DNA of 64,000 bases from assembly GCA_021325615.1 (NCBI GenBank), contig JAJPGU010000012.1:1-64000 (forward strand), read 5' to 3'. The position numbers and the translations under genes were made by a program. Below the pieces are notes generated by a model that was given only the letters and a program-made list of their open reading frames with translations, was not told the origin of the DNA and searched no databases. The DNA comes from Nitrososphaerota archaeon. GTDB taxonomy: Archaea > Thermoproteota > Nitrososphaeria > Nitrososphaerales > Nitrosopumilaceae. Shown one piece after another: positions 3 to 8,079 of this stretch (the first letter of the stretch is position 1; each line of letters begins with the position of its first letter).

Positions 3-311
3 AGGGAACCGATCTTACACGCATGGGTTCCACATAGTAACGACGAACCTGTTATTGTATACGCACCTGTTTTTAACAATACCAATTCTATGTATCATCT
101 GAAAATCAAAATGGATTCAATAGATTATGATAGTAACCTTTTTGATGAAAGCACTATGCCTCAATTCAGTTTTAATCTTAACATGAAAGAACAGAATCAA
201 ACCCTTACAAGTCAAAATGTAGCAGTTCCAGAGTTTCCAGTAGCAATTCCGGTTTTATTAATGGGACTCACTTCATTAATCGTCTTTTCTAAGATGAAAA
301 TTCGTATTTAG
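3..311 (+). CDS. PEFG-CTERM surface protein, C-terminal fragment
   Basis: The reading frame is open from the first complete codon of the window, so this is the cut 3' end of a longer gene. The visible 102 residues are Asn/Pro-rich and extracellular in character. They end in VPEFPVAIP, a hydrophobic stretch of about 17 residues and a basic tail (KMKIRI). That tripartite layout is the PEF/PEFG-CTERM sorting signal of thaumarchaeal surface proteins, thought to be processed by an archaeosortase; a candidate enzyme is encoded at 11799-12749. The ATG at 90 is internal and need not be the real start. The function of the missing ectodomain cannot be judged. Confidence 0.7.
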   Translation, partial: REPILHAWVPHSNDEPVIVYAPVFNNTNSMYHLKIKMDSIDYDSNLFDESTMPQFSFNLNMKEQNQTLTSQNVAVPEFPVAIPVLLMGLTSLIVFSKMKIRI

Positions 312-376
312 ACTACAACATCGCAGTCAGCTACAATTCTGCATATTATAAAAACTGGATTGATCTACCTGTTCTC

Positions 377-385
377 TTTTTATTT
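377..385 (+). promoter_or_regulatory. TATA box of the tRNA gene
   Basis: The T-rich element TTTTTATTT is centred 26 nt before the first base of the tRNA acceptor stem at 407. This is the usual archaeal TATA-to-start distance and suggests the unusual tRNA is transcribed. Confidence 0.5.
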
Positions 386-406
386 CAAATTTGTAAGAAA
401 GATCCT

Positions 407-488
407 GTCAGGGTCGGCAAGTAAGGCATGCCGTGTATCTGAAAAATACAAGCCTTCGGGTACGTGGGTTCAAATCCCACCCCTGACG
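407..488 (+). tRNA. class II tRNA, Ser-like body with GAA anticodon
   Basis: All arms fold without mismatches. The acceptor GTCAGGG (407-413) pairs with CCCTGAC (481-487). The D stem is GGC/GCC (416-418/430-432). The anticodon stem is TGTAT/ATACA (434-438/446-450), and the T arm is GTGGG-TTCAAAT-CCCAC (464-480). The 7-nt loop CTGAAAA puts GAA (441-443) as the anticodon, which reads Phe codons. The variable arm is 13 nt (451-463, mini-hairpin GCC-TTCG-GGT), which is class II, and the discriminator base is G488. Known tRNA-Phe is class I with A73, while class II plus G73 is typical of tRNA-Ser; a Ser(GGA) loop would differ by one base. No CCA is encoded. The gene is convincing, its amino-acid identity is not. 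Confidence 0.75.
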
Positions 489-748
489 GGTCTACTTCCA
501 TATTGTTTCAGAGTCTAATTAAAGTGTCGTTACTCGAGATTCTTTTAAACAAGATTCTAATCTGTGTATGAATTGAGATGCCTTGTTTATTTGTGGAATG
601 TGGAAATGGACTACACATGGTCGGAACCCACCTGTCCGGGTTTAACGCATGATGTCTTTCTTGCCTGACAAATGCCGTCTGCCCCCGGAAAAGATTGCAT
701 CGCATTAATCGTGGCAACGGTTTTCTTGAGAAAAAGGCACTCGATGCT
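489..748. other. intergenic stretch, nothing recognised
   Basis: Between the tRNA and the zinc-finger gene there is AT-rich sequence followed by a short inverted repeat (AACCC/GGGTT around 627-645). I see no convincing coding frame, RNA fold or repeat family here. Confidence 0.4.
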
Positions 749-1117
749 TTACAGGTAGTGGATCTTCATGTGGTTGTTGTGAACCGTCTCAAACTGCGTG
801 ACATGCCCACAGTGGATGCAGGAGAAAAACTGGTCGGACTTGCCCTGCGGGACGGACTCGAGCTTGTATCCGTCAAGCGACACGATGGTGATTATGCTGC
901 CCTTCTGTACCACTGCAAAGTGCCTCTCGCAGCCAAGTGATGCAAGGTACATCTTGATTGCAGTAATGACGTCAGACGAGCTGATTTCCTCGTCGCCTAC
1001 GGGGGCAAGCATGAACTCGCGCTGCTTGAGTGCAGGCACTGCACCCACCTTGTCCGAAGTGTAGACCGCAAGCGGCGACTTGATTGTGAGCACGTCTCTG
1101 CAGTTTACTGTTATCAC
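749..1117 (-). CDS. hypothetical protein with C-terminal C2H2 finger
   Basis: A 122-residue protein starting at a GTG, with a TATA-like element (rev. AAATTAAATTAC, about 1139-1150) roughly 26 nt upstream, which suggests a leaderless start. The first 90 residues are a mixed alpha/beta domain I do not recognise. The tail carries C-x2-C followed 12 residues later by H-x4-H (CIHCGH...HNNHMKIH), a classical C2H2-type zinc finger at about residues 98-120. It is likely cytoplasmic, and DNA, RNA or protein binding is possible. It follows the winged-helix gene on the same strand with 31 nt between them. Confidence 0.7.
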   Translation of the reverse strand: MITVNCRDVLTIKSPLAVYTSDKVGAVPALKQREFMLAPVGDEEISSSDVITAIKMYLASLGCERHFAVVQKGSIITIVSLDGYKLESVPQGKSDQFFSCIHCGHVTQFETVHNNHMKIHYL

Positions 1118-1148
1118 GTCTGAATACAGCGGGGGGCGTAATTTAATT

Positions 1149-1442
1149 TCATTTGAGGGCCCTGCCGAGAACGAAGAGGTTGCACTTGTAGAGTATCTCC
1201 CTCTTGCCTGCCCCGTTTATCGTGCCAATTTTGCGTATTATCCTGCAGTCTGAGAGCTTTTGCATCTTCCTGTAGGCGGTGCTTGTTGGTATGTTGCACT
1301 CTTGGCAGATCTGGCTCGTGGATTTTGCGTCCTTCATGATACATTCAAGAATCATCCTGTTTGTGCCGTCGGAAAGGATCTCTTCGATGGCTTGCTTTTC
1401 ATCACTTACCTCTAGCATTGCTTCTTGTGTGATTCTAATCAT
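1149..1442 (-). CDS. winged-helix transcriptional regulator (ArsR-like fold)
   Basis: A 97-residue protein. Residues 18-90 have the pattern of a small winged helix: helix ILSDGTNRMILECIM, recognition-helix region STSQICQECNIPTSTAYRKMQKL, then a beta-wing with GKREILYKC. That is the size of a bare DNA-binding domain, so dimerisation or ligand sensing must use the same fold. Cys residues in QICQEC and at C89 could sense metal or redox, but no known metal site is complete. Start is ATG 1442. The target is unknown; neighbouring genes are the obvious candidates. Confidence 0.75.
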   Translation of the reverse strand: MIRITQEAMLEVSDEKQAIEEILSDGTNRMILECIMKDAKSTSQICQECNIPTSTAYRKMQKLSDCRIIRKIGTINGAGKREILYKCNLFVLGRALK

Positions 1443-1637
1443 TTAATGGATTGCTTAACTATGTTCCATGAGGTGGCGCCGGAGAACCACGGCCGATCAA
1501 ACATTATGCGGGCAGGTTATTTCTGCAACTGTACCACAACAGATTTTATCCCGACCAGACGGCACCAACGGGGATTGTAAAAAACCCGTGCCCCAGAGGG
1601 GCAAAGATTTACATAAATACGCCGCAGATTGCTGTCC

Positions 1638-2438
1638 GTGAACAACATCTACGCAAACGCCGCGGACGACTTTCTTGAGCTTGCCAGCGAGCAAAGACTG
1701 AACATAATATTCAAGCTGCTTGAGAAAAAGTCCAAGATCTCAAACATGGCAAAGGAACTGCATGCCACCGTGCAGGAGGTGCACAGGAACTTTGAGAGGC
1801 TTGCAGGGGCAGGGCTGATAATGAAGGACAAGGACGGCATGTATGACCTTACCACATATGGAAAGACGATGTGCACACAGGTCCCCTCGCTGCTTTTCCT
1901 GTCAAAGAACAGAAAATATTTCGAGGATCACGACTTTGGGGACGTCCCAATGAAGTTCATCCAGAGGATTGGGGCGCTTGCCGGCGGGCAGCAAATAAAG
2001 GGATTCGTTAAGGTCCTGGAGCAATGGAAGTCAATTTACAAGAACGCCGACGAGTTTGTCTACGAGATATTCACCGAAGTGCCGCTTGACCTCATAGAGC
2101 CACTCCTTACCAAGGTAAAGCAGGGAATGCACCTCCAGTACATCTTTGCCGAATCAGTAATAGTACCAAAGGGCAGGAAGGAACTGCTCAGCAAGCTCGG
2201 CATGAGTGAGCTCCTTGAGAAAGGCCTTGTGGAGAGAAGGATGAGGGCAGGCACAAACGTGGTAGTGGTCCTAAACGAGAAGGAGGCTTGCGTTGGCTTT
2301 CCTACGCTTGACGGCGTGGCAGACATGCGGGAGATGTTCTACAGCAGGGATACGCTATTCCACGAGTGGTGCCTGGACTACTTTAGGTACTGCTGGTACA
2401 ACTCGCAGCAGTTCCAGGAAAGCAAGATCCGCGAATAA
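1638..2438 (+). CDS. HTH regulator, FilR1/DUF1724-like
   Basis: Two parts are visible. An N-terminal winged helix (about residues 10-75: ASEQRLNIIFKLL, then SNMAKELHATVQEVHRNFERL, then a wing ending LTTYGK) is followed by a roughly 180-residue sensor domain containing EVPLDLIEPLL, FAESVIVP, ERRMRAGTNVVVVLNE and FPTLDGVADMREMF. This matches archaeal regulators with the middle domain once called DUF1724. I chose GTG 1638 over TTG 1629 because TTTACATAAAT (about 1608-1618) sits 25-26 nt upstream, as for a leaderless transcript. The ligand is unknown. It is a single gene, with 36 nt to the next. Confidence 0.75.
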   Translation: MNNIYANAADDFLELASEQRLNIIFKLLEKKSKISNMAKELHATVQEVHRNFERLAGAGLIMKDKDGMYDLTTYGKTMCTQVPSLLFLSKNRKYFEDHDFGDVPMKFIQRIGALAGGQQIKGFVKVLEQWKSIYKNADEFVYEIFTEVPLDLIEPLLTKVKQGMHLQYIFAESVIVPKGRKELLSKLGMSELLEKGLVERRMRAGTNVVVVLNEKEACVGFPTLDGVADMREMFYSRDTLFHEWCLDYFRYCWYNSQQFQESKIRE

Positions 2439-2474
2439 CGTTATGAATTTAATCCCGCCCGCCGCCTAGACCAC

Positions 2475-3350
2475 GTGCATGACTTTACCATTGAATATCT
2501 GAGGTGCCTAGACTGCAGGTCACGCCTTGATGTGGAGGCGCTTGCCAGCGAGTCAGAACTTGAGGAGGGATTCCTCCGCTGCAGGAGCTGCAGGTCAGCC
2601 TATCCCGTGATAATGAAGGTGCCAATTATCGTGCAAGACATATCTTCGTATTTTGCAATAAGGGCCTCGCTTGGAGGCCATCTGATGTTAAAATCTAGGA
2701 CTGGAAAGATGCGGTCTTTTGTAAGGAAGGCACTCTCAAAGGTCCGGCAGGCGTCGGATGATACTACGGCCCTTGAGAAAAAGTGGGTCAGGATATATCG
2801 TGACAGCGCGGGGTCGGAATTTTACTCCAGAGTTAGGTCCATACTTGCGGGCCTTGGCCCGTCAGACACAGTACTTGAGCACGGCTGCTCCATCGGACAG
2901 ATTGCAAACATGGCTGCCCAGAGGGCGGCAAGGGTGTTTGGCATAGACAAGTCGTTTTACGCAATTGCCGAGGCAAAAGGGGCGCGTGCAAAAAACTCCG
3001 ACTTTGTGGTGGCCGACTCGCTCAACCACCCATTTGGCCCGCAAAAGTTTGACATGGTCCTTGCACTGAACCTGCTTGATATTGTAGAGCCACAGAATCT
3101 TCTCAGGACTCTTGCCTCCCAGGCTAGGGGAACCCTAGTCCTGTCAGACCCATATGACTATGACAGGGGCAAGAGTTCCGTAAGGAAGAGGATGGGGCCG
3201 CGTGAGATACGGTCAACGCTTAGGAGGTCCGGGTTCAGGATTGTGGCGGGAACTGCAAGGGAGGCCCGCATACCGTGGAACCTCAAGGCAAATCCGAGGC
3301 TTGAACTGCACTACAAGGTGGACCTTGTGGTTGCAAAAAGGCTCGGCTAG
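2475..3350 (+). CDS. SAM-dependent methyltransferase with zinc-ribbon N-terminus
   Basis: A 291-residue protein. C11-x2-C14 and C36-x2-C39 form a Trm112/UPF0434-like zinc ribbon. After a linker, residues 115-285 are a class I Rossmann methyltransferase: motif I VLEHGCSIGQIA, acidic post-I VFGIDKSF, and motif IV DMVLALNLLDIV. The substrate is not evident. GTG 2475 has a TATA-like TTTAAT about 26 nt upstream. The stop overlaps the stop of the convergent radical SAM gene in a shared CTAG. Confidence 0.8.
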   Translation: MHDFTIEYLRCLDCRSRLDVEALASESELEEGFLRCRSCRSAYPVIMKVPIIVQDISSYFAIRASLGGHLMLKSRTGKMRSFVRKALSKVRQASDDTTALEKKWVRIYRDSAGSEFYSRVRSILAGLGPSDTVLEHGCSIGQIANMAAQRAARVFGIDKSFYAIAEAKGARAKNSDFVVADSLNHPFGPQKFDMVLALNLLDIVEPQNLLRTLASQARGTLVLSDPYDYDRGKSSVRKRMGPREIRSTLRRSGFRIVAGTAREARIPWNLKANPRLELHYKVDLVVAKRLG

Positions 3351-4420
3351 GATTGCTCCACTGCCTCGGGGGCTCGCTGGGATATCATCTTTGAAAGCCC
3401 CATCATGTAGTTCTGAGCAAATGTAGTGACTGGCTGGGACGAGTACCATATGCACCCAAGCACCTGGCAGTCATGGCAGGTCTTTGCAATCTCCCACTGG
3501 GGCGCAGACCAGATCTCCTCGACGCTCTTCTCAAGGAGGCTGTAGGTGTTCTGGGGACTGCTGTACTTCCAGCAGGGTACCATGACTGTCCCGTTGCCGT
3601 TGACAAAGATTGACTTCCATACGCCGCACTCGTCGTACATTCCACGGCCATGTTCTATTATCTGCTCAAAGTACTGCAGAGGTATCATGACCTGCGGGTC
3701 CTCCCTGCTCTGGATGTGTTCAAGGACGCTCTTGCAAACCTGCACGATTGTATCGCGGTCGGGCAGGAGGGTATAGTCAACGTCTGACCTGTCCTCCACG
3801 AAGGTAAGGGAGACAGAGTTTACCCCAAGATCCTTTGCCTTCCTAAAATATGACTTGTCGATGAACTCCCTTGTGTTAAACTTGGTAATTACAGAGTTGA
3901 AGGTATGCGGTACGCCATGCTCGTTGAGGATCTGAAGGTTCTGCATCACGCGCTGGTACGTTTGCGGCGTTACCCCGCGGACCTTGCAGTAGGACTCTTC
4001 AAAGACCGAGTCTATGCTGCAGGTGATGAACTGGATGTGGCGTTTCAGCTCGTCAAGGTCTATGGTGTGAAGAAGCGAGCAGTTTGTTATCAGCGTGATT
4101 GGAAGTTTCAGCGAGTCAAGATGCCTTACAAGCTCCATAAAGTCGGGCCTGCTGGTAGGCTCGCCTCCCTCTATGATGGACCAGATGCAGTATTTGGAAA
4201 CCTTGTCAAATATGGACTTCCACTGCTCGGTCGTAAGGTCGTTCTTTGATGCTAGCTTGATCTGCCCCTGCTTGTCGGAGTCGCCAAAGGGGCACATGGG
4301 GCAAAAGTAGTTGCAGTAGTGGGTGAGGCTGAATACCGCGATAAGGGGCCTCCTCCGCCCTACCGCCCTGTTGAGGGACCACTTGCCGACCCTGTCGATT
4401 GTCCTGATTACGTCTACCAC
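3347..4420 (-). CDS. radical SAM/SPASM-type protein
   Basis: A 357-residue protein with the radical SAM cluster motif C36-x3-C40-x2-C43 (HYCNYFCPMCPFG), which binds a 4Fe-4S cluster and SAM. It is followed by the TIM-barrel signatures EGGEPTSRPDF and ITNCSLL. The C-terminal Cys-rich part (CGVW, MVPCWKY, CHDCQVLGC) suggests an auxiliary-cluster SPASM or twitch domain. Such enzymes modify peptides, lipids or cofactors; no substrate can be deduced here, and no peptide precursor is visible beside it. It is convergent with a methyltransferase, sharing 4 bp of stop codon. Confidence 0.8.
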   Translation of the reverse strand: MVDVIRTIDRVGKWSLNRAVGRRRPLIAVFSLTHYCNYFCPMCPFGDSDKQGQIKLASKNDLTTEQWKSIFDKVSKYCIWSIIEGGEPTSRPDFMELVRHLDSLKLPITLITNCSLLHTIDLDELKRHIQFITCSIDSVFEESYCKVRGVTPQTYQRVMQNLQILNEHGVPHTFNSVITKFNTREFIDKSYFRKAKDLGVNSVSLTFVEDRSDVDYTLLPDRDTIVQVCKSVLEHIQSREDPQVMIPLQYFEQIIEHGRGMYDECGVWKSIFVNGNGTVMVPCWKYSSPQNTYSLLEKSVEEIWSAPQWEIAKTCHDCQVLGCIWYSSQPVTTFAQNYMMGLSKMISQRAPEAVEQS

Positions 4421-4487
4421 TATCTTGCTCCCTTGTCGATTCTATTAAAATTTTGAGCCCCTGCAACGGTGCATTTGCTGCAACCAG

Positions 4488-4494
4488 TTTATCT
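4488..4494 (+). promoter_or_regulatory. TATA box deciding the PEBP-gene start
   Basis: TTTATCT lies about 26 nt before GTG 4517. This supports a leaderless start there rather than at the longer upstream frame, and the shorter protein begins directly with a clean signal peptide. Confidence 0.45.
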
Positions 4495-4516
4495 GAAACT
4501 GTGCAGTATCCAATGC

Positions 4517-5302
4517 GTGAGGGTCCATCTAGTTGTGCTTGCGGCGGCCATTGCAATGGTCCCGTCGCTTGCAGCGGCTGACCAGATTCACGTGCCCTCA
4601 TGGGTGAAAAACAACGCCAAGTGGTGGTCGGAGGGTTTTGTGGGGGATGATGATTTCATCAAGGGAATCCAGTACCTTGTAGATCGGGGGCTGATGGTGA
4701 TACCGGGCGGTGTAAACGCGACTGCTTCGCCATCCCAGATACCTTCCTGGGTAAAGACCGACGCGGGATGGTGGGCCGATGGTAAGGTTTCCGACCGGGA
4801 CTTTGTAAGGGGCATGGAATACTTGGTAGGGTCGGGGATCATCAGGATGGGCAGCAGCGGCCCGTTTGTGATATCAAGCCCCGCATTTGAGGACAACGGG
4901 ACAATTCCCATGCGATATACATGCGACGGTGGGAGCACGCCACCGCCTATTGATGTTTCGGGAATCCCGCACAATGCGCGGACCCTAGCTATTACGGTGG
5001 TTGACATTGACGCACCGGCAGGCCCGTTCACTCACTGGGTGGCATGGAACATCCCACCAAACTCGACCTCGCTTGACACAGGGAACGCTAATGCCTTCTC
5101 CGAGGGTATGACAAGCGCGGGTACCGTGGGCTACCGCGGCCCCTGTCCTCCATCTGGAACCCATAGGTACTACTTTACAGTATACGCCCTTGACACGGCG
5201 CTTGATCTGGCACAGGGTGCGTCAAGGACAGACCTTGAAAATGCCATGGCAGGACATGTGGTGGGAAAGGCAGTCTTATTGGGGACCTATTCAAAGAATT
5301 GA
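4517..5302 (+). CDS. secreted PEBP (YbhB/YbcL) family protein with two W-repeats
   Basis: A 261-residue protein from GTG 4517. Residues 1-21 are a signal peptide (VVLAAAIAMVPSLAAA). Two tandem 35-residue repeats follow, at about 27-61 and 75-109, each built as [IV]PSWVK-x4-WW-x-G-x4-DF-x2-G-x-[QE]YLV. This repeat is common in secreted thaumarchaeal proteins. Residues 115-261 are a phosphatidylethanolamine-binding/Raf-kinase-inhibitor-like domain with DIDAPAGPFTHWVAWNIP and GPCPPSGTHRY. It is probably extracytoplasmic and ligand binding; its natural ligand is unknown. No membrane anchor or PEFG tail is present. Confidence 0.8.
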   Translation: MRVHLVVLAAAIAMVPSLAAADQIHVPSWVKNNAKWWSEGFVGDDDFIKGIQYLVDRGLMVIPGGVNATASPSQIPSWVKTDAGWWADGKVSDRDFVRGMEYLVGSGIIRMGSSGPFVISSPAFEDNGTIPMRYTCDGGSTPPPIDVSGIPHNARTLAITVVDIDAPAGPFTHWVAWNIPPNSTSLDTGNANAFSEGMTSAGTVGYRGPCPPSGTHRYYFTVYALDTALDLAQGASRTDLENAMAGHVVGKAVLLGTYSKN

Positions 5303-5524
5303 TCTTGTCCAATGCTTGGGAGAAACTACCTGGCAGGAATTAAACACCGATAATCAGCGCCTGATTTCTCGCTCACTGCACGACTTCGATGAAACTTTTA
5401 TGCGCCTACAGGAATTGTCATGTGCTGGCTGTACGTAAGGGAGGAGGTTTTACGAATTTGTTCAGGCATGGCTGGCGATCTTTTCCCAAGGCATCGGTGA
5501 TTCATCTCAAGGAGTATCGAACCT

Positions 5525-5731
5525 TTAGAATCCGATTACCTGGCCCGTCCTTGCGTTTATCTTCACTTGGAACTTTTTGAAACTGCTCGATGTCACCAAC
5601 ACCTCGACTGTCCATATGCCGTCATCAAGGAACGTCTTGAGTATCTTTACTACCGAGTGATACTGCTGCAAAAACCCCACGGCAATCTCATTCGCGGTCT
5701 TGCTGTCTATGATATAGAGGGACATACCCAC
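5525..5731 (-). CDS. small PepSY-like protein, paralogue 1
   Basis: A 68-residue protein from a GTG start with an AT-rich element (rev. TTAAATTTC, about 5748-5757) 26 nt upstream. It reads helix AVGFLQQYHSVVKIL, then two strands IWTVEVLV and FQVKINARTGQVIGF. The order of one helix and two strands ending in a DxxTG-like turn resembles a single PepSY domain. It is clearly related to the 66-residue protein at 21669-21869 (shared FLQ-x2-H-x-VV, D-x-IW-x-V-x-VLV and QV-x-I-x-A-x-TG). No signal peptide is present, so a cytoplasmic location is likely. Function unknown. Confidence 0.65.
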   Translation of the reverse strand: MGMSLYIIDSKTANEIAVGFLQQYHSVVKILKTFLDDGIWTVEVLVTSSSFKKFQVKINARTGQVIGF

Positions 5732-6010
5732 CCATACTATGGCAGAAATGAAATTTAATCATGTATGCAAGATTGTTCGGTAGAATTTCTAGGGTATTTT
5801 TTCACACAATGCTGCCATTGAGGTGGAGTGTTGCGGTGAGGCATGTTGGTACAACATCTCGTGATTTCAAATACGTCTCCATGGTGACTCTCCCAAGATC
5901 ATCTCCGCCTGGCCATCAAAAGACTTAAACATATTGCCCTCCTCACCCAAGGAATACGGCTATGACATTAGCCTGGGAGAAATCCTGAACCGCCCCGGAA
6001 GGAGCTGATA
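5732..6010. other. promoter-bearing intergenic region before the cupredoxin gene
   Basis: This AT-rich spacer holds a 6-bp inverted repeat ATGTTG-GTA-CAACAT (5843-5857) and a TATA-like ACTTAAACATATT (5923-5935). The predicted transcript start is near 5956, giving a leader of about 55 nt before the short frame at 6011. I found no other coding signal. Confidence 0.4.
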
Positions 6011-6103
6011 ATGTCTACCCAATGGAAATTAGGTAGACAAGATGAACAAAAAAAACAAGAACCAAACCGGGCAAAAAAAAGCCAGATTCTCAATCAACCG
6101 TGA
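6011..6103 (+). CDS. possible 30-residue leader ORF overlapping the cupredoxin gene
   Basis: ATG 6011 is preceded by GGAAGGAG, a good Shine-Dalgarno-like match ending about 7 nt before it. It opens a 30-codon frame (MSTQWKLGRQ...) that ends at TGA 6101-6103 after overlapping the start of the large frame at 6042 in another phase. An inverted repeat covers its first ten codons. Two A8 tracts lie in the overlap. It could be a leader peptide for translational coupling, an N-terminal part joined by slippage, or chance. Confidence 0.3.
   Translation: MSTQWKLGRQDEQKKQEPNRAKKSQILNQP
6012..6039. promoter_or_regulatory. inverted repeat over the cupredoxin translation start region
   Basis: TGTCTACC (6012-6019) and GGTAGACA (6032-6039) are perfect 8-bp arms around a 12-nt spacer, ending 2 nt before ATG 6042 and overlapping ATG 6011. 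It could be an operator or an RNA hairpin that hides the start codons. No regulator can be assigned. Confidence 0.4.
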
Positions 6104-7568
6104 TTCATTCCCATCCTTTGTCTTGAAAATGCCCAGGCCTGCAACGCTACTTGCACTGGGGCTTGCGACCCTGCGCTGCCTCATATTTCAGGGACATGCC
6201 CTTGCACAGTATTATCAGGACCAGCCAACATTTACGCAGGCAGGGTCTGGAAACTCCCTTGTCACGGCAAGCGGAACCTCTTCTGACGGCTCTGTACATG
6301 TAACAATAACCTCGACATCGATAACTGCAGACCAGCCACTTGCACTACAGATATCGTTCACAGACCAGGCTGGCAGGCCAATACCTTACGAACACTATGG
6401 CATCCGAGCCCAGCAAATGGTGGGCAACGGAGTGCTGCTGCTCTCCAACGAGTCCTCAATCGCAGTAAACGGCAAGGACATCCAAGTGACAGACTCACTG
6501 CAAAACGTAAGTCCTGTAAACTTCCAAGTGCAGTTGCAGGGATCAGGAGCTCCAGACACTAGCATAACAGAATGGAGGGGGCCAAACGAGATAGTCAGCA
6601 TAACCATAGGCCAGCAGTACAGCTCCCACACTGCAGTGTCCGAGGCCCCGCCGGACTCGGAGGAAGTGGTGACTATACCGTTTGGCGCATATGACCCCAA
6701 CTTCAATACCGCAGCCCCGAATTGGTACCAGCCGGCAGTTGTCACCATCCAGGTTAACCAGAGCGTTACATGGATAAACCAGGACAAGGAGGTCCACACA
6801 GTTACCAGCGGCGTGTCGGCGGGCAGGGCGGGGCTTATTGGAAACAGCGTGGGACGCCCCGACGGGATCTTTGACAGCAGCCAAATCGGAATAGGCAAGT
6901 CATGGACCCACAAGTTCACAAGGCCTGGAACGTTTGAGTATTTCTGCACCATTCATCCTTGGATGGAGGGATACGTGATAGTCAAGGAGGCGCAGCCTGT
7001 GCCTACCGATGCACAGGGAAACAAGATAACCAAGTTCCCGATCGTGCGGCTCACCCCGGACAGGGCGTACGAGCTTGACCTTGACTGGGAGCCTCACTAC
7101 ATCACGACGGGGCAGCAGATCACTTTCATTTACCAGGTATATGACAACATAAGGTTCGAAGCGATACCTGCCCACTATGTATTTACGATAAATCAAAACG
7201 GGCAGCAGCTGTACAAGGTAGACGACTCGACCCAGTTTGGCGGGGCGTACCAGTACTTTAGGTTTGACAATCCAGGACCGGTTACATTTGAATTTGACGA
7301 CATCGCACATACGGGACAATCGGCCCAATATTCCACCATTGTAGCCCCGGGTAATCCCTCCGACATGAACGACGATAACGCGCCGATGGTAGAGCCTGCG
7401 CGAAACCTTGAGCTGACATGGTGGCTCATGCCACTGTTCTTTGTCCCATGTGGCGGGGCTGTGGCTGCAATCTATATAATAAAGCGCAAGTCCAAACGGG
7501 AAGACCCGACCCGTCCAGTGCAAGAAAAACGCGGTGATGGCGGGTCGCAGAAGAGGACGCCTATATGA
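6042..7568 (+). CDS. membrane-anchored multi-domain cupredoxin (blue copper protein)
   Basis: The frame from 6042 gives 508 residues, but ATG 6129 (residue 30) starts a standard signal peptide (PATLLALGLATL...ALAQ) and may be the true start. A beta-sandwich of about 120 residues is followed by a plastocyanin-like domain (about 205-316) with copper ligands H252, C302, H305 and M308 in EVHTV and YFCTIHPWM. A further roughly 130-residue domain precedes one membrane helix (about 460-480) and a basic cytoplasmic tail. In ammonia oxidisers such proteins carry electrons at the outer face of the membrane; the exact partner is not shown. The leader is unusual (see the inverted repeat and short ORF). 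Confidence 0.85.
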   Translation: MNKKNKNQTGQKKARFSINRDSFPSFVLKMPRPATLLALGLATLRCLIFQGHALAQYYQDQPTFTQAGSGNSLVTASGTSSDGSVHVTITSTSITADQPLALQISFTDQAGRPIPYEHYGIRAQQMVGNGVLLLSNESSIAVNGKDIQVTDSLQNVSPVNFQVQLQGSGAPDTSITEWRGPNEIVSITIGQQYSSHTAVSEAPPDSEEVVTIPFGAYDPNFNTAAPNWYQPAVVTIQVNQSVTWINQDKEVHTVTSGVSAGRAGLIGNSVGRPDGIFDSSQIGIGKSWTHKFTRPGTFEYFCTIHPWMEGYVIVKEAQPVPTDAQGNKITKFPIVRLTPDRAYELDLDWEPHYITTGQQITFIYQVYDNIRFEAIPAHYVFTINQNGQQLYKVDDSTQFGGAYQYFRFDNPGPVTFEFDDIAHTGQSAQYSTIVAPGNPSDMNDDNAPMVEPARNLELTWWLMPLFFVPCGGAVAAIYIIKRKSKREDPTRPVQEKRGDGGSQKRTPI

Positions 7569-7689
7569 AGGGCACTTCAATCGTACATGGAACCTATCTG
7601 CAAGCCTGCAGCACAAATGGGAAAACAAAGGGCTTCTATCGCAGGGCAAAAATTGCATCTGATTTAAGCAACCTTTGCGCGGGAAAGGT

Positions 7690-8079
7690 ATGAAGATGAT
7701 TGAGCTGGCCTTGCTCGCGGCGGGCGGAGTACTAGGGGTCTTTCTCAGGTATGGGATAACCAAGTCGCCTCTGTTGCTTGGTGCACTTTCGGTAAACGTC
7801 CTAATGGTGAACGTCATAGGAAGTTTCATACTTGGGGCTTTTGCAGTTTTGTCCCAGCAGTGGAACCTTGACCAAAAATACGCGATGTTTGTGGCTATAG
7901 GCTTTTGCGGAGGGCTTACCACCATGTCTTCCTTTGCCCTTGAGACTGCAAACTTGGCTGACAACAAACAATATCTACTAATGGCCGCAAACATACTGAC
8001 AAACGTGGGACTCTCGATTGGCGCCATCTTTGGGGGAAGGGCAATAACATCAGTAATACTAGAAGGAGGACTAAAATGA
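7690..8079 (+). CDS. crcB: fluoride channel CrcB/Fluc
   Basis: About 129 residues with four membrane helices. Family motifs are GGVLGVFLRYGI near the N-terminus, VNVIGSFILGAF, and GFCGGLTTMSSFALE, whose Gly-Gly-Leu-Thr-Thr-x-Ser-Ser-Phe stretch lines the channel. Fluc proteins form antiparallel dimers that export fluoride passively. ATG 7690 is preferred because GATTTAAG (7661-7668) lies 25 nt upstream; ATG 7696 is possible. The stop overlaps the start of the DUF190 gene in ATGA. I see no fluoride riboswitch upstream. Confidence 0.9.
   Translation: MKMIELALLAAGGVLGVFLRYGITKSPLLLGALSVNVLMVNVIGSFILGAFAVLSQQWNLDQKYAMFVAIGFCGGLTTMSSFALETANLADNKQYLLMAANILTNVGLSIGAIFGGRAITSVILEGGLK

Follow-up and report, generated by a model that had tools for sequence, protein, structure and literature searches.

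Class II tRNAs carrying foreign anticodons have previously been known from bacteria, as allo-tRNAs, and from nematodes, as nev-tRNAs. Allo-tRNAs (Mukai et al., 2017; PMC7609411) are defined by a 12-bp acceptor branch of the 8/4 or 9/3 form, and one allo-tRNA pseudogene overlaps a transposon-related gene (PMC7609411). Nev-tRNAs (PMC4033280; PMC4300185) are conserved, multicopy class II tRNAs that carry class I anticodons and exist beside ordinary tRNAs. A third system, tRNA-Sec, is a serylated class II tRNA dedicated to recoding. Our literature search found no report of foreign-anticodon class II tRNAs in archaea.

The window analyzed here, a stretch of 64,000 nucleotides, begins at the start of a 163.5-kb contig (C30) belonging to a 32-contig, 1.83-Mb archaeal genome that is ~96% complete and is presumed to come from an ammonia-oxidising member of the Nitrosopumilaceae. 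Close to that start lies a class II tRNA gene with the Phe anticodon GAA (Table 1). Like allo-tRNAs, this tRNA and its relatives are class II, show SerRS identity features (G73 and a long variable arm) together with a non-Ser anticodon, and are sporadic in distribution; allo-tRNAs, however, are bacterial, have 8/4 or 9/3 branches and correspond to 35 codons, whereas the archaeal family is 7/5 and almost entirely GAA. By prediction, therefore, the family is allo-tRNA-like in its working, but not in its structure. With nev-tRNAs it shares a class II body under a class I anticodon, multiple copies, conservation and coexistence with ordinary tRNAs. Nev-tRNAs are nevertheless eukaryotic, have Leu identity (A73 and a Leu-type variable arm) and mainly Gly/Ile anticodons, and the available portions of the two reports describe neither viral carriage nor T-loop introns; in the window tRNA, position 73 is G, and the D-arm and variable-arm spacer are of the Ser type. 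Archaeal tRNA-Sec differs in its UCA anticodon and 9/4 branch.

Table 1. Features of the tRNA locus in the window
Feature	Position	Strand	Remark
Upstream box, TGGATTGATCTACCTG, 16 bases	356..371	+	3 sites in the 1.83-Mb genome at <=2 mismatches
TATA-like element, TTTTTAT	377..383	+	
Conserved AATTTGTA	388..395	+	between the TATA-like element and the gene
Class II tRNA gene, Ser-type body, G73, anticodon GAA	407..488	+	CCA not encoded
Anticodon GAA	441..443	+	within the 7-nt loop CTGAAAA
Variable arm, AGCCTTCGGGTAC, 13 nt	451..463	+	short stem; 2-nt 3' spacer (Ser-like; Leu 3-4)
Downstream motif GAGTCTAATTAAAGTGTCGT	511..530	+	identical at the C15 paralogue; possible 3' end/terminator element

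ARAGORN calls a single tRNA in the window (406-489, plus strand, anticodon GAA), and 407-488 scores 52.9 bits with the Rfam model RF00005, whose gathering score is 29. A sequence-only reading of the window had described a perfect class II fold, a variable arm with a mini-hairpin, a G discriminator, an upstream TATA box and the GAA anticodon, and each of these holds. Pairing is complete in the acceptor stem (7/7), the anticodon stem (5/5) and the T-stem (5/5), and the canonical core bases (A14, G18G19 and TTCAAAT) are retained, so that the gene shows neither the broken stems nor the lost core bases of a pseudogene. The same reading erred in calling the D-loop shorter than usual: 20 nt lie in positions 8-26, the very length seen in the ordinary tRNA-Ser(GCT), (GGA) and (TGA) of Nitrosopumilaceae. 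An ORF with its stop at 311 ends upstream of the gene, on whose other side there is a region with a small ORF on the reverse strand.

Regarding the identity of this tRNA, a normal class I tRNA-Phe(GAA) is present in the same genome (C30:144639, loop CTGAAGA), and hence the window gene is not the genome's true Phe tRNA; the earlier description of a Ser-type body with a Phe anticodon, distinct from that tRNA, is thus upheld. Ordinary tRNA-Phe shares the anticodon, but has a class I variable loop, A73 and G37, in place of the 13-nt arm, G73 and A37 found here. The genome also encodes ordinary tRNA-Ser with GGA, GCT and CGA anticodons. Ordinary archaeal tRNA-Ser resembles the window tRNA in G73, D-arm length, variable-arm geometry and the 7/5 branch, while the GAA anticodon in place of a Ser one (NGA/GCT), the stem sequences and its own flanking elements set the window tRNA apart.

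We compared 19 class II odd-anticodon members with the ordinary Ser and Leu tRNAs of Nitrosopumilaceae. In the latter, Ser tRNAs have G73, 18-20 nt across positions 8-26 and a variable-arm 3' spacer mostly of 1-2 nt, and Leu tRNAs have A73, 22 nt and a spacer of 3-4 nt; the window tRNA, with G73, 20 nt and a spacer of 2, follows the Ser pattern. Charging with Leu, by which Phe codons would be read as Leu in a mild change, finds some ground in GAA being one base away from Leu UAA/CAA, in members elsewhere with CAG (and CAA or TAA in Woesearchaeota) and in the A73 of one copy, G017b. Nevertheless, that copy is the lone exception to G73 (18/19 members), the 8-26 span is 20 nt in 14 of the 19 and 20-21 nt in 18, and the 3' spacer is short. 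Moreover, G73 acts in archaea as a strong determinant for SerRS and works against recognition by LeuRS as an antideterminant, and the anticodon has no role in serylation (PMC9976931). Leu charging is accordingly very improbable. Since archaeal SerRS reads G73 and the long arm rather than the anticodon, charging of the window tRNA with Ser by SerRS is the best prediction from its sequence. The 30-40 pair is A-U, not the G-C that aids serylation. SerRS and tRNA-Ser(TGA) were not found in the window genome assembly (~96% complete), where tRNA counts rest on Rfam and model searches that may miss intron-rich genes; both are probably assembly gaps. A second SerRS was sought in relatives and none was found, each having one full-length match and otherwise weak ones below the cut-off.

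The window gene does not stand alone. The 82-nt gene served as query in a plain DNA search of 200 family genomes, in which ordinary T-arms formed the background; above that background, the search returned one paralogue in the window genome and genes in other genomes, all with GAA. It was extended by a pattern scan of contigs from GTDB r220, by scans of 250 genomes of the family and 400 of the class, and by searches with a covariance model, R1. By pattern, carriers amount to 10 of the 400 class genomes and 3 of 82 genera, all of them Nitrosopumilaceae, with 1-4 copies per genome. The window genome has four (the window copy on C30, C15:18230, C32:15122 and C6:41003), with mismatches in the acceptor of the C15 copy and a poor T-arm in the C6 copy, plus a decayed fifth at C7:528; genome G123 has four, and there are two in G017 (at 663374 and 800562) and two in G151. 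Of the 19 members compared, 17 bear GAA, the exceptions being one CAG and one GTC. The CAG copy, in G172, occupies the site that holds GAA in G123 and G151, beside the same upstream gene, and of the copies in G113 one bears GTC and another GAA. Broken or decayed copies also occur (L156, G161 and G113 C283). A member lacking the 5' acceptor strand, seen at L077:298-379 and L118 (G161:C14), is probably a dead copy.

These relatives bear on the origin of the anticodon. The sequence-only reading had placed the gene one base away from tRNA-Ser(GGA), and the loop difference is indeed a single base (CTGGAAA versus CTGAAAA), in keeping with a sequencing or assembly error or a one-off tRNA-Ser(GGA) mutation. 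However, an intact tRNA-Ser(GGA) is present at C15:58642, and independent genomes and a viral contig show the same anticodon in class II bodies, which refutes a base error at the anticodon; diverged relatives hold the same loop through compensating stem changes, which likewise disposes of a recent point mutation or a lone relic. The probability left to such an error or mutation is practically nil.

The stems of the family covary. In 13 aligned sequences, with the introns of three removed by hand, 94.9% of stem cells pair and 17 of 21 pairs show two-sided changes; none of 500 shuffles equalled this, with slid controls at 40-51%. The anticodon loop TGAAAA is invariant across this set, part of which came from a pattern that required the loop while the members from the plain DNA search did not, and TGAA(A/G)A is nearly fixed across the wider family while the stems covary.

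The flanks of these genes are also shared. Three sites in the entire genome carry the box TGGATTSATCTACCTG, and every one of them lies upstream of a class II GAA gene; the core of the box, ATCTACCTG, also precedes a diverged member in G123. The tRNA bodies of the window and C15 copies are only ~75% alike, yet GAGTCTAATTAAAGTGTCGT is identical at both; these flanking elements were absent from the ordinary tRNA genes inspected. We take the flanks to be a shared, perhaps regulated, promoter and 3' element; the other explanation would be common descent of the unit. Pairing between leader and trailer is possible in some copies but not kept in all, and an extended acceptor stem or non-tRNA hairpin was therefore rejected. 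In one subfamily, seen at L169 (G172:C41) and L224 (G123:C16), the 3' trailer CTGTCTTGG shows complementarity to the beginning of the variable arm (CCAAGAC, CTCAAGGC) with a compensating difference, and an alternative pre-tRNA fold is possible. At L108:9930-9975, the leader TCCTACCAC is a repeat of the acceptor's 3' strand in G017b, and pairing of this leader with the 5' strand of the acceptor is possible.

Several observations indicate that the genes move. In G017, a complete genome in a single contig of 1,620,156 bp, the copy at 800562 lies within a clean ~210-bp stretch that all 12 readable genus members lack at the corresponding intergenic site, one of the empty-site relatives being 92% identical. 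No clear target duplication was seen at this site, and no integrase or transposase was found among the nine proteins of window 3-8079 or in the flanks of several other copies; cargo of a mobile element was accordingly rejected. In addition, the tailed-virus contig IMGVR_UViG_3300005607_000202 (35 kb) carries an intact class II GAA tRNA (L286:7471-7556) with all stems paired and G73, which scores 85 bits with R1 against 75.5 for an ordinary Ser-GCT. It is near terminase and MCM helicase genes on the same contig, the latter suggesting an archaeal host. The first pattern scan of viral contigs gave 27 hits, of which 26 failed the stem test and are apparently chance hits, and only L267 passed. Among the 84 hits of two wider scans there was a single intact tRNA; it is a phage tRNA-Phe with A73, lies in a tRNA array and falls outside the Ser-type GAA family. 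A phage-array tRNA-Phe(GAA) with a long variable arm and A73 was noted on the minus strand of L296 (1216-1298). Known phage genomes (50,697 records) yielded no match to the tRNA unit or the viral tRNA. Of the earlier suggestion of a mobile-element relic, the mobility stands, given the recent insertion in one relative, the varying copy number and location and the viral copy; the isolated relic does not.

Sporadic presence, insertion polymorphism, decayed copies and the viral member would all suit selfish or decaying tRNA copies, a unit spreading by insertion or virus with no host function, conserved only in active copies. We regard this as quite unlikely, considering that stems covary and the anticodon is conserved at non-orthologous loci, that the promoter box is retained although the bodies diverge, and that the sites examined show neither transposase or integrase nor a clear target duplication.

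Based on these sequences, the family most likely consists of missense tRNAs that are charged with Ser, dispersing and expressed conditionally, and would be the counterpart in archaea to allo-tRNAs and nev-tRNAs. The gene would be transcribed from its own archaeal promoter, with an upstream box common to paralogues in this genus, and the transcript would fold as a normal 7/5 class II tRNA, mature normally and be charged with Ser by the single SerRS. The resulting Ser-tRNA(GAA) would then compete with ordinary Phe-tRNA(Phe) at UUU/UUC, leading to the insertion of Ser, an action that is probably rare or conditional. The genes would spread horizontally and by insertion into intergenic sites, with archaeal viruses as possible carriers. 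Transcription, serylation, ribosomal use and a benefit to the carrier are steps that we infer. Phe codons make up 4% of codons in the long ORFs of the window; constant strong misreading would therefore be harmful, and either expression would have to be low or conditional or acceptance of the tRNA would have to be poor. The closest experimental precedent is the nev-tRNA, which matures and is mischarged in vitro with mistranslation undetectable (PMC4300185); allo-tRNAs represent the opposite case, some of them inserting Ser efficiently in E. coli (PMC7609411). The whole reading, in which Ser-type class II GAA tRNAs form a family dispersed in archaea, are Ser-charged, are used rarely or conditionally and spread horizontally, has in our judgment a roughly even chance of being right. 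Against it stand the decaying copies, the A-U at 30-40, the A73 of G017b and the CAG and GTC members.

A charged tRNA might instead have a non-ribosomal job, either as seryl donor to a ligase or transferase or as a regulatory or decoy RNA (an anticodon-nuclease sink), its odd anticodon keeping it off Ser codons. One study (PMC10264068) reportedly proposes that phage tRNAs serve to evade tRNA-targeting defences, and such a job would fit the better conservation of the flanking elements than of the tRNA body and the leader-acceptor inverted repeat in G017b. It would also be in line with the stability of nev-tRNAs, whose use in translation is undetectable (PMC4300185). On the other hand, the gene neighbourhoods show no pointer to such an enzyme, a non-decoding RNA would not require GAA in nearly all copies, and a tRNA-Phe decoy would be expected to copy a class I body instead. 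A non-ribosomal job is thus unlikely, though a serious contender.

A parallel set exists in Woesearchaeota. The genomes behind L079, L089 and L092 encode class II, G73 tRNAs with GAA; GTC, CAA, TAA or GAT anticodons also occur in some cases. Each odd-anticodon copy is interrupted within the T loop, directly behind position 58, by an insert of 14-61 nt. Many of these inserts fold as a bulge-helix-bulge, with TTCAA:TTGAA between two 3-nt bulges, which identifies them as putative introns with splicing motifs; ordinary tRNA-Ser genes of G251 have no insert at this site. Two Woesearchaeota genomes, G250 and G251, hold many odd-anticodon class II tRNAs, each with a T-loop intron (L121, L122, L125, L139 and L141; further ones are L144, L145, L147, L151 and L152), whereas their ordinary tRNA-Ser genes lack an intron at that position.

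If charged and used, Ser-type GAA tRNAs would break the normal genetic code. The archaeal case offers one dominant conserved anticodon, a shared promoter box, insertion between close relatives, a viral carrier and DPANN T-loop introns, and for this reason it becomes directly testable whether tRNAs of this kind are used, tolerated or selfish. In a bolder and rather unlikely form of the proposal, archaea and their viruses would exchange a dedicated, regulated class of tRNAs that are charged with Ser and recode Phe codons to Ser on demand, in stress, defence or virus-host conflict, with the Woesearchaeota set as a second, separately elaborated branch.

Elsewhere in the window, a fluoride riboswitch (5949-6024, 40.1 bits) lies upstream of genes for a cupredoxin-domain protein (6042-7568) and a CrcB-like protein (7675-8079).
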